A stretch of DNA of 64,000 nucleotides. It comes from an uncultured Flavobacteriaceae bacterium (lineage in GTDB: Bacteria; Bacteroidota; Bacteroidia; Flavobacteriales; Flavobacteriaceae). The stretch spans positions 1 through 64,000 of the forward strand of contig CANNAN010000003.1 in the NCBI GenBank assembly GCA_947502635.1, in the 5' to 3' direction. Numbering within the stretch: the stretch's first letter is position 1; each line of letters starts with the position of its first letter. A model generated the notes under the pieces. That model saw only the letters and a program-made list of their open reading frames with translations. It did no database searches and was not told the DNA's origin. Shown here piece by piece: positions 20,690-28,482 of the stretch. The translations under genes were made by a program, and so were the position numbers.

Positions 20690-21179
20690 AGAAACACATT
20701 TTTCAGAAAATCTGTTTGTCTAAGAAGTTTCATTTTTTGCTCGATAGGTTTTTGTATTTTGTTAGAACAGATATTTTTTACATCACTAAACTACGCCAGA
20801 AATATTATTGGTTTTAACGCACAGCTCTATATTAATAACAGTGATATTTACAGAAATGAGTTCTCTATTGTTAAAATACGAGATGGGAATATGTCAAAAA
20901 ACGACTTTGGTTTTTAATCGAATATTTTTAGTGTTGACTTAGGTTTGTTTAACGTTGAGTATATGATAAGTAAAACGTTTCGTAGAACAAACCTATCAAG
21001 TGTGCAATGAGCCGAAGTTTTTGTTTTGGCATCGCTAAAACAATTATAACTAGCCTGAACCAAATCTAGTTTGTTCAACAAATAACCTGAAATCCTCGAA
21101 AAAAGAAGCAGGAACAGATAGAGGTATTCCCAATTTTAATAATACTCTAGAACTAAATATATTTTTGTCCGTAATAAAT
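20690..21179. other. Gene-free 490-bp stretch of the island (repeat copy D)
   Basis: No credible gene. It contains repeat copy D at about 20765-20890 (see below), an inverted repeat GGTTTGTT (20942-20949) / AACAAACC about 45 bp apart, and a GTTTAACGTTGAGT string (20947-20960). Downstream to 21179 the sequence is plain AT-rich intergenic DNA with no clear signals. Confidence 0.5.
20765..20890. repeat. Island repeat, copy D (diverged)
   Basis: Matches copies A and B over the AGATATTTTTT ... ACGCACAGCTCTATAT core, and copy A further on (AAATGAGTT ... CTATTGTTAAAATACG), with more substitutions than A against B. It sits upstream of the SRPBCC remnant. Confidence 0.6.
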
Positions 21180-26949: not shown

Positions 26950-27650
26950 TATTATGATTTAATATGAAGAATATTACTCAGTAATAACGACGATTCATTT
27001 TTTGATTTGTTACAGTTCTTTTTTCAAGCTTACAGGTAATGCAAAGATAAAATTCCGTTTTAGTGCATTTTATCGGTTGTTACCTAACTATCGGTAGAAG
27101 AACGAAGTTAGTTGAAAATTTCACAAAGTCAACAACCACATTATACAAAAACCACTCAGCTTTTGCTAAGTGGCTTTAACTTTGGTTGCTAAAATTAATT
27201 CTACGTATCAACTTATTAGCTGAGCAGATATTTTTTGCACCACTAAACTACAGCGGCAATGCTGTTGGTTTTAACGCACAGCTCTATATTTATAACTATG
27301 GTATTTGCAGAAATGAGTTCCCTATTGTTAAAATACGCAGTGGGGAAGATGGTAAAAAACCCATCGTACTCTTTTTGGTATAAAAAGATGTGTGCCCGTA
27401 TTGTAGCTCTTACCTGCGTAAATAATACCCATAACCTTTAAGCCTGTTTTGCAATGTGTTTTAACATTGTTTTTTAGCTCAGATTTATCTATAAGTACAA
27501 TTAATGTGGCAATAATACCGTAAAGAGGCAGTATAAAACTGTCTGGCAATACTTCTGTTTTTTCCATAGAATATATTTTAGGTTGGTGAAACTCAATTTT
27601 GGCATGCCTTAGTTGATGGGTATTGAAACAAGTTTAACACCTGGCGCCTT
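26950..27650. other. Gene-free stretch holding island repeat A
   Basis: From the serine hydrolase start to the structured RNA. 27042-27365 is repeat copy A; from 27366 to 27650 only short ORFs occur, none with recognisable homology or a convincing start. A T-rich minus-strand terminator-like hairpin, CCACTTAGC/GCTGAGTGG, lies within the repeat at about 27152-27173. Confidence 0.5.
27042..27365. repeat. Island repeat, copy A (longest)
   Basis: Combines the blocks found in B, C and D. Left part (27042-27150, shared with C) carries a minus-strand promoter TATCTTTG; the middle (27094-27294) is nearly identical to B; the right part (27220-27345) is shared with D. It lies about 90 bp upstream of the serine hydrolase start, and the promoter points to that gene. 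Confidence 0.75.
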
Positions 27651-27663
27651 ATTGTATGGAAAC

Positions 27664-27867
27664 AAAAAAAGGCGTGGAACTCAACTTATCGCATCATAGG
27701 TACTGGTATACCGCACACCGATAAGAGAGCCCACGCCAAAAAGACGTGAGCCTATCTGCTTATCATCTCAGTGCAAAAATTACCAGTTTTATGATGTGAG
27801 ACTCTAAGCGACCGCTTCAAATATTTTCTATACGAAGAATCGCAAATTTACATTTTTAATGTAAAGT
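27664..27867 (-). ncRNA. Probable structured RNA divergent from the tandem HTH genes
   Basis: A minus-strand -7 box TATATTTG (27880-27873) gives a start near 27867; a hairpin with T-run (27671-27737, then seven T) gives the 3' end, for a roughly 200-nt RNA. Helices: GCGA/UCGC plus CUUC/GAAG near the 5' end; UCUCA/UGAGA; a 9-bp hairpin GCUCACGUC/GGCGUGGGC with a U5 loop; CUUAUCG/CGAUAAG inside the terminal hairpin GGCGUGG/CCACGCC; and a possible long-range pair ACUGGUA/UACCAGU. The GGCGUGG strand can pair either way, so two folds compete. No ORF. I recall similar sequence from other flavobacteria but cannot name a family. Confidence 0.55.
27671..27737 (-). terminator. Terminal hairpin of the structured RNA
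   Basis: GGCGTGG (27671-27677) and CCACGCC (27731-27737) close the hairpin, with CTTATCG/CGATAAG inside, and on the minus strand it is followed by TTTTTTT. Confidence 0.6.
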
Positions 27868-27893
27868 TCTTACAAATATAGTAAAATGTTTAC

Positions 27894-27915
27894 TCATTAC
27901 CGAATTCGGTAATGA
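27894..27915. promoter_or_regulatory. 22-bp perfect palindrome (operator) between the RNA and the HTH genes
   Basis: CATTACCGAATTCGGTAATG (27895-27914) is a perfect palindrome, extended one base on each side (27894 T / 27915 A). It lies about 38 bp upstream of the predicted RNA start and 35 bp upstream of the HTH gene, where it would overlap the -33 region of the RNA promoter. Binding by one of the two HTH proteins is a likely autoregulatory arrangement. Confidence 0.65.
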
Positions 27916-27949
27916 ATTTATTGAATAGAAGGTTCAAATTGCGATAAAC

Positions 27950-28222
27950 ATGGCGATTATGAATGAGTACAAGACAAAAAAAATTAAGGAACTGATTGCA
28001 AAAAAGGTTAAAGAAACTAAAGGAGATATTCCTTATAGTAAGATAGCCGAGAAATGTAATACTACTGCTGCCAGAATTAGTGATGTAGCAAATAACAAAA
28101 TTGATTGTCGTTTAAGTACTTTTATTGACGTTGCTACTGGTTTACGTATTCACCCTAAAGAATTGTTTGATATACTGTTTGAGTTTGAAGAGTATTATGC
28201 TGATTTGGATGGAGGTATCTAG
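27950..28222 (+). CDS. Small HTH protein (first of a tandem pair)
   Basis: 90 aa from ATG 27950; ATG 27959 (MNEYKTKK) is an alternative. A lambda-repressor-like HTH is visible in IPYSKIAEKCNTTAARISDV and its helix continues into the motif RIHPKELFDILFEFEEYYAD. Together with the next gene it forms a tandem pair sharing the IHPKELFDF motif. It is a likely DNA-binding regulator of this locus; no phage or toxin gene lies next to it. Confidence 0.8.
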   Translation: MAIMNEYKTKKIKELIAKKVKETKGDIPYSKIAEKCNTTAARISDVANNKIDCRLSTFIDVATGLRIHPKELFDILFEFEEYYADLDGGI

Positions 28223-28251
28223 AGTAAAGACAAGGTGAGAATAGTACGTAA

Positions 28252-28482
28252 TTGAAGAAAAACAACAAGGTATATTATAAAGCATTTGGAGAACATCTAA
28301 AATTATTGCTTAAAAAGTATAATAAAGATGTGATGACTGTAGCATCGATAGGAAAAATAGAACCTAAACAAGTGTACCGCGTGTTAAAGGGAGAACATGG
28401 AGCTTCTATGAAAACCATTTTGGCTTTGGCTGAAGGCTTGGAAATTCACCCCAAAGAATTGTTTGATTTTGATAATGAGTAA
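28252..28482 (+). CDS. Small HTH protein (second of a tandem pair)
   Basis: 76 aa with a TTG start at 28252 (MKKNNKVYYKAFGEHLKLLL), the only good start before the domain. The XRE-type HTH is VMTVASIGKIEPKQVYRVLK and the tail ASMKTILALAEGLEIHPKEL copies the IHPKELFDF motif of the previous protein. It is 29 bp after that gene. Related small XRE proteins are common in Bacteroidetes. Confidence 0.78.
   Translation: MKKNNKVYYKAFGEHLKLLLKKYNKDVMTVASIGKIEPKQVYRVLKGEHGASMKTILALAEGLEIHPKELFDFDNE

Follow-up and report, generated by a model that had tools for sequence, protein, structure and literature searches.

A widespread structured RNA of Flavobacteriaceae beside exchangeable HTH genes: a candidate attenuator leader and, in relatives, a predicted dCas12f-sigma landing site

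Small RNAs located just upstream of susC are known from Bacteroides, where they are represented by SusC-associated antisense sRNAs such as DonS, and phage-type divergent switches combine a repressor gene with an operator. The RNA described here, referred to as RNA1, shares features with both. Like the DonS-type sRNAs it is a small RNA upstream of susC, but it is encoded on the susC strand, a distinction that is drawn by description and not by sequence. As in phage-type switches, a repressor-like gene with a palindrome faces the RNA1 promoter, its type varying between copies; the output, however, would be a conserved leader RNA, and phage and plasmid records contained no match to the RNA1 DNA of the window (the whole 64,000-nt stretch of DNA analyzed). 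Leader-RNA attenuators, be they riboswitch-like or protein-controlled, have in common with RNA1 the 5′ leader position, two exclusive folds, a U-tract and a following gene that, judged by the tested P110 gaps (see below), has no promoter element to itself. In contrast to them, RNA1 possesses a terminator-like hairpin with a long loop and no recognized ligand or Rfam family, and it is partnered with a divergent, changing HTH gene. The dCas12f-sigmaE system (PDB 9n9c) is related to RNA1 in another way, as the RNA1 of relatives is followed by its sigma and dCas12f genes and is matched by half of the testable guides, a 5′ G adjoining the target. Unlike a guide of this system, RNA1 appears to be the addressed site and a leader, and it is widespread without dCas12f, including in the genome of the window. 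Finally, Rfp sRNAs and 64 structured 5′ regions, some of them without Rfam match, were reported for Flavobacterium psychrophilum, a member of the same family as the RNA1 hosts (PMC9723704). By description, RNA1 possibly overlaps one of these.

The features of the locus are compiled in Table 1. An original prediction, made from the sequence alone, had placed a structured RNA with a 5′ end at 27867 on the minus strand, and the elements it named were found in place. The RNA itself is upheld, as its fold beats shuffles and its homologues covary: the RNA from 27846 to 27655 had a better fold than every one of 200 dinucleotide shuffles (z −4.46). The 5′ end probably has to be shifted, since the position of the −7 element implies a start nearer to 27839 than to 27867, which results in a length of about 176 nt from the inferred start to the U-tract. 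Bacteroidetes-type promoters are characterized by a −7 element TAnnTTTG and a −33 TTTG. TAnnTTTG was found ahead of RNA1 in 33 of 34 loci of the genus and in 38 of 40 loci of other genera, while the strict −33/−7 pattern was present in just nine and ten of the same loci, respectively.

Table 1. Positions of RNA1 and its neighboring features in the window.
Feature	Position	Strand	Remark
RNA1, structured leader RNA	27664..27839	minus	5′ end approximate, inferred from −7 element
U-tract closing RNA1	27670-27664	minus	
Bacteroidetes-type promoter of RNA1	27843..27876	minus	
−33 TTTG of RNA1 promoter	27876-27873	minus	
−7 element TAAATTTG of RNA1 promoter	27850-27843	minus	
Rod	27692..27796	minus	covariation: 44 genus copies and 45 copies from other genera
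Rod helix P2	27796-27791/27697-27692	minus	
Rod helix P3, ACUGGUA/UACCAGU	27787-27781/27708-27702	minus	
Rod helices P4-P5	inside P3	minus	
Rod apical helix P6, GCTCACGTC/GGCGTGGGC	27751-27743/27737-27729	minus	
Terminator-like alternative hairpin	27671..27737	minus	5′ arm 27737-27720, 3′ arm 27690-27671, then U7
CCACGCC	27677-27671	minus	
Segment GCGTGGGCTCTCTTAT with adjacent 5′ G	27721..27737	minus	same sequence as dCas12f guides found in relatives, including one of the genus
P110 gene, downstream of RNA1	27249..27567	minus	frameshifted: first 79 residues in one frame, rest in another
Perfect 22-bp palindrome, candidate operator	27894..27915	none	just upstream of −33 element, between RNA1 and small genes
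First divergent small gene, 90 aa	27950..28222	plus	resembles HTHs located next to RNA1 in relatives
Second small HTH gene, 76 aa	28252..28482	plus	reaches HTH_26 cutoff

Searches against Rfam at gathering and permissive thresholds yielded only weak matches in the region, the best of them with 21.7 bits against a threshold of 51.4. The covariance search proposed along with the prediction returned covarying homologues. Hence neither of two findings that were named as speaking against the prediction, a lack of such homologues and a known Rfam family explaining the locus, was obtained. In the window, a single RNA1 match was obtained (27669-27805). Six RNA1 copies are present in the genome as a whole, the other five being 78-82% identical to the one in the window, and all 12 genomes of the genus, which includes Flavivirga, contain RNA1 with 1-10 matches per genome; five Flavivirga species are among the named relatives. 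Within the Flavobacteriaceae, a covariance model detected RNA1 in 71 of 397 genomes and 58 of 237 genera (58 of the genomes at 80 bits or more), and in a sample over the phylum Bacteroidota in 46 of 395 genomes; counts across genomes ignore kinship. Twenty places outside the Flavobacteriaceae were inspected. The 12 that scored above 80 bits were accompanied by an HTH match in nine cases and by a SusC or sigma match in nine cases. No HTH or SusC match accompanied the eight below 77 bits (L240-L247), which are probably chance matches. RNA1 is a widespread structured RNA that is missing from Rfam.

Several RNA1 copies (among L047 on G003:C8, L048-L051 in G002, L066 and L069) were split in the apical loop, each at model positions ~104-110, and the ORF beside the split RNA in L048 and L049 is an IS110-family transposase (for L048 with the Pfam matches Transposase_20 and DEDD_Tnp_IS110). 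At L150 (G306:C26), L145 (G152) and L020 (G003:C2), two RNA1 copies lie close to each other, and HTH genes are found between or next to the copies, which looks like a stacking of cassettes; one of the two copies at L020 is partial.

Comparative analysis of the RNA1 copies revealed a rod as the dominant fold. A search of all column pairs of the genus alignment, performed without a model, recovered the rod helices and a few other pairs, which are taken to follow subfamilies in the sequences. In the 44 genus copies, 97.9% of the cells of the rod were paired and 16 pairs showed two-sided changes, with a covariation score of 0.316 compared to at most 0.058 when the rod was slid. Similar values (97.2% of cells paired, 16 doubly changed pairs) were obtained for 45 copies of other genera in an alignment that was fitted to the covariance model and thus leans towards the rod. 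The long-range pair that had been proposed as possible for this RNA corresponds to the covarying helix P3, and the helix directly outside P3 changes freely in sequence while its pairing is kept.

It had also been suggested that one of the helices competes with the 3′ hairpin of the same RNA. The 3′ strand of the apical GCUCACGUC/GGCGUGGGC hairpin is indeed common to a second hairpin, which extends to UCCACGCC and the U-tract; this terminator-like hairpin uses a strand that is also used by P5/P6. The alternative is conserved in both alignments, with 97.5% (genus) and 98.0% (other genera) of the cells paired, and its covariation is weaker than that of the rod: three doubly changed pairs in the genus, a number reached by 57 of 500 shuffles, and five in the other genera, reached by one of 500. 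RNA1 therefore shows two mutually exclusive conserved folds, one of which is followed by a U-tract, as expected of an attenuator, with the second fold being the weaker one. In constrained folding, the rod was favored over the terminator in 36 of 44 copies, by 4.3 kcal/mol on average and up to ~18 kcal/mol, with the reverse in a few, which implies that full-length RNA1 might not terminate. A simple scan listed no canonical short-loop terminator on the minus strand, and the loop of the alternative hairpin is unusually long.

The genes that follow RNA1 on the same strand differ between the genus and its relatives. In the genus, 36 of 41 distinct loci, which are a part of all RNA1 places listed in the 12 genomes, carry downstream of RNA1 a gene for P110, a family of ~110-residue proteins; the five others are L036, L040, L055, L050 and L051, and in the last two an insertion close to the end of a contig interrupts the RNA. 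P110 is modeled by AlphaFold (mean pLDDT 85) as what would be a new all-helical family, and comparisons with Pfam, NCBIfam, PHROGs, PADLOC and PDB sequences gave no credible match, as did a comparison with PDB folds (best E 3.3). It was present in three of 299 family genomes, all three in the genus, with further records named Flaviramulus and uncultured Flavobacteriaceae. A P110 remnant with a stop codon was noticed at 20801-20923 of the window, on the minus strand. The order of promoter, RNA, terminator and small gene in the genus, together with the multicopy occurrence, is reminiscent of a type III-like toxin-antitoxin pair in which RNA1 would neutralize P110. However, the distribution of RNA1 is far wider than that of P110, a tandem-repeat array was not found in RNA1, and the P110 fold matches nothing, let alone a ToxN-like fold, which makes such a pair very improbable.

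For the other genera, a same-strand ORF of SusC size was found 300-1000 nt from the RNA1 start in 26 of 40 loci and a same-strand sigma factor in another eight, the remaining six being L145, L150, L153, L163, L164 and L168. Behind the sigma factor, six of these eight loci encode a protein of 365-387 aa, and the other two encode a FecR-like protein (assigned by eye) together with a SusC-sized protein. Pfam searches confirmed SusC, SusD and a Met-zincin peptidase at one locus and a sigma factor at another. At two loci outside the family (L230, L231), a 99-109-aa ORF lies straight after RNA1 and ahead of SusC/SusD-like genes and may correspond to P110. The gap between RNA1 and SusC (L132, L133, L134 and other SusC loci) contains a conserved short ORF, ~38 aa by eye and ending like DILFKKKPKNPI; between this ORF and the start of SusC lie a conserved, pseudoknot-like segment and then a CCTCC/GGAGG hairpin.

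The motif TAnnTTTG occurred in none of 29 RNA1-P110 gaps (2.1 expected), in four of 26 SusC gaps (6.3 expected) and in one of eight sigma gaps (0.7 expected), and the strict promoter pattern was absent from all 29, 26 and 8 gaps, respectively. SusC begins at a median of 562 nt beyond RNA1, with more conserved elements in the gap. This distance, the own promoter element, the compact stable fold with its U-tract and the 1-10 matches per genus genome are compatible with RNA1 being a free-standing, trans-acting sRNA under HTH control, which would always end at the U-tract and act on mRNAs or a protein, the downstream gene being a neighbor or a target. Nevertheless, the regular placement of RNA1 on the same strand before P110, SusC or sigma genes, the tested P110 gaps without promoter element and the conserved second fold, which suggests switching, argue against a free-standing sRNA, and we consider it rather unlikely. 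On balance, RNA1 probably leads a gene or operon at the 5′ side and works as an HTH-gated attenuator, a reading to which we assign moderate confidence.

On the other side of the promoter, a 22-bp perfect palindrome is present between RNA1 and the divergent genes, as had been predicted. It occurs only once in its own genome, with no other occurrence at up to three mismatches. Palindromes with an arm score of at least 9 were found between HTH and RNA1 in 14 of 34 genus loci and 12 of 40 loci of other genera, compared to ~3.5% of letter shuffles, which corresponds to an about tenfold enrichment. Furthermore, the same HTH type is accompanied by the same palindrome across genera, for example in L133, L144 and L151. 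Both divergent genes of the window had been described as XRE-type. The second reaches the cutoff of an HTH model (HTH_26), whereas the product of the first had no credible match in Pfam or NCBIfam and is connected to HTHs by its similarity to the RNA1-adjacent HTHs of relatives (best E 2e-12). The second product shares 91-92% identity with the HTH that stands next to RNA1 in four other genus genomes, so the second gene is, judged by sequence, likely an older partner of RNA1 and the tandem pair probably records a replacement. The interpretation of the locus as a unit of repressor, operator and structured RNA is supported within its limits; it does not cover the gene that follows on the RNA1 strand, the varying HTH partner, the terminator character of the alternative fold or the identity of the apical segment with dCas12f guides of related genomes.

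All 45 RNA1 loci examined had a divergent ORF that was no shorter than 50 aa and started within 160 nt of the RNA, and these ORFs fall into 25 clusters at 60% identity. The same arrangement was seen in other genera, where a divergent small ORF was found in 40 of 40 loci (36 genomes), HTH_3 being the commonest HTH model (25 of 40 divergent ORFs); at the level of the family, the divergent ORFs at RNA1 loci are mostly HTHs, often with a palindrome. At one orthologous site of the genus (L174/L177/L187), the genes after P110 are the same while any two of the HTHs are at most 36% identical, and at a second (L175/L184) the genes after P110 are again the same and the HTHs lack significant similarity. 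At a third site (L179/L183), the HTHs are 54% identical, which is why this site is not counted as an exchange. By these comparisons, RNA1 is paired with an ever-changing HTH partner. We also considered whether copies in one genome avoid a common HTH; one of 77 within-genome pairs fell into one cluster with 2.2 expected (P 0.34), which is not significant.

The differing HTHs at orthologous sites, the partial RNA1 copies beside HTHs and the IS110 insertions in the apical loop might also point to an element that works as DNA, i.e., as a recombination site or cruciform for the exchange of HTH cassettes, with its transcription being incidental. Conserved G-U pairs (U-G in 35 of 44 copies at one P6 pair) favor pairing at the RNA level, though, and the −7 element is conserved as well, which leaves a function as DNA improbable.

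In relatives, the attenuator-like RNA1 is linked to an RNA-guided sigma factor. The 365-aa protein beside the sigma factor is identified as dCas12f by its profile, which matches the 'Nuclease-deactivated Cas12f' of PDB 9n9c with E 6.7e-214. A dCas12f match was obtained in 20 of 397 family genomes, and RNA1 was present in 18 of these 20 and in 16 of the 16 with a full-length match (Fisher 7e-13 for 18 of 20 against 71 of 397 overall, not corrected for kinship). Of the 21 loci with a full-length dCas12f, among them the one found in the genus, 17 have RNA1 at the head of the sigma-dCas12f operon, at most 2 kb upstream. The genus locus belongs to the only genome (G002) out of 12 in the genus with dCas12f, and a search of the genome of the window (G000) found none. 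Moreover, 53 of the 71 RNA1-bearing family genomes had no dCas12f match, and a role as dCas12f target therefore cannot be the sole reason for RNA1 conservation.

The leading position at these loci could suggest that RNA1 itself serves dCas12f-sigma as guide RNA. However, 20 of the 22 scanned loci have, next to dCas12f, a separate scaffold that ends with GCATATACAAC and precedes guides such as GCGTGGGCTCTCTTATTT; a separate scaffold is present in the genus as well, and 11 of 12 genus genomes contain RNA1 without dCas12f. The idea of RNA1 as guide RNA is hardly credible and was dropped in view of this separate conserved scaffold.

Instead of acting as the guide, RNA1 seems to be what the guide addresses, as GCGTGGGCTCTCTTATTT equals the apical segment of RNA1. 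Of the 25 scaffold copies, 24 were testable, and their guides were compared with RNA1 copies of the same genome, for some genomes with only part of those present: 12 of the 24 matched the apical segment within 3 of 16 positions, one differed at 4 of 16 and 11 had no match. In G002, the guide agrees at every position with one of the RNA1 copies of this genome, and the same 16 bases are present in the RNA1 of the window. At up to two mismatches, the 17-mer was found at 53 places in 21 genomes, which were sorted by comparison with the positions of RNA1 and dCas12f matches into 42 RNA1 copies, ten guide genes and one other; the reversed pattern gave four matches. The base before the target is G in 44 of 44 genus copies and 45 of 45 copies of other genera (column counts), and C in nine of the ten guide genes. 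The dCas12f-sigma system reportedly requires a 5′ G next to its target and is said to start transcription ~46 bp from this G. The target points in the same direction as RNA1. In the 32 of 44 and 37 of 45 copies in which the patterns used located both ends, the terminator-like hairpin has its 3′ arm starting 47-51 nt from the adjacent G. In these relatives, the DNA of RNA1 is a predicted landing site of dCas12f-sigma. At four dCas12f loci (L204, L205, L206, L211), two scaffold copies each were present; several of their guides match none of the RNA1 copies compared, and dCas12f-sigma thus probably has further targets. Literature searches yielded no description of RNA1; published work on dCas12f-sigma may already report targets upstream of susC.

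A mechanism that would connect these observations starts with the divergent HTH protein, which would bind the palindrome beside the RNA1 promoter and thereby control this promoter. Nascent RNA1 would then fold into the rod, and the 3′ arm, once made, could displace the rod in favor of the terminator-like hairpin before the U-tract. The outcome would be either a short RNA of ~176 nt or, if the rod is kept, read-through to the downstream gene, i.e., P110 in the genus and, in other genera, SusC/SusD with a peptidase or sigma factor genes. Comparative data support the two folds, and switching between them is proposed. In genomes with dCas12f-sigma only, the guide RNA may in addition address the 5′ arm of the terminator-like hairpin. 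If transcription starts at the reported distance of ~46 bp from the G, the start would lie just beyond this arm and the transcripts, devoid of it, would be unable to form the terminator and pass the attenuator, so that RNA-guided initiation would bypass the HTH gate and the attenuator alike. As no dCas12f was found in its genome, the RNA1 of the window is best read as an HTH-gated leader with attenuator, involving only the first two of these steps; the P110 gene that it now precedes is broken.

Taken as a whole, RNA1 might represent a two-key switch of a new type, a proposal that we put forward tentatively. An exchangeable repressor cassette would gate an attenuator leader, and a CRISPR-derived, RNA-guided sigma factor would dock in the 5′ arm of the attenuator, start just past it, bypass repressor and terminator and turn on families of SusC/SusD operons as well as the sigma-dCas12f operon itself. 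That the repressor is exchanged while the RNA next to it stays fixed is an evolutionary puzzle in itself. If the proposal is true, it would hint at the way in which a group of SusC/SusD operons of Bacteroidota is gated, and RNA-guided sigma factors would gain a recurring natural address, located inside an attenuator.
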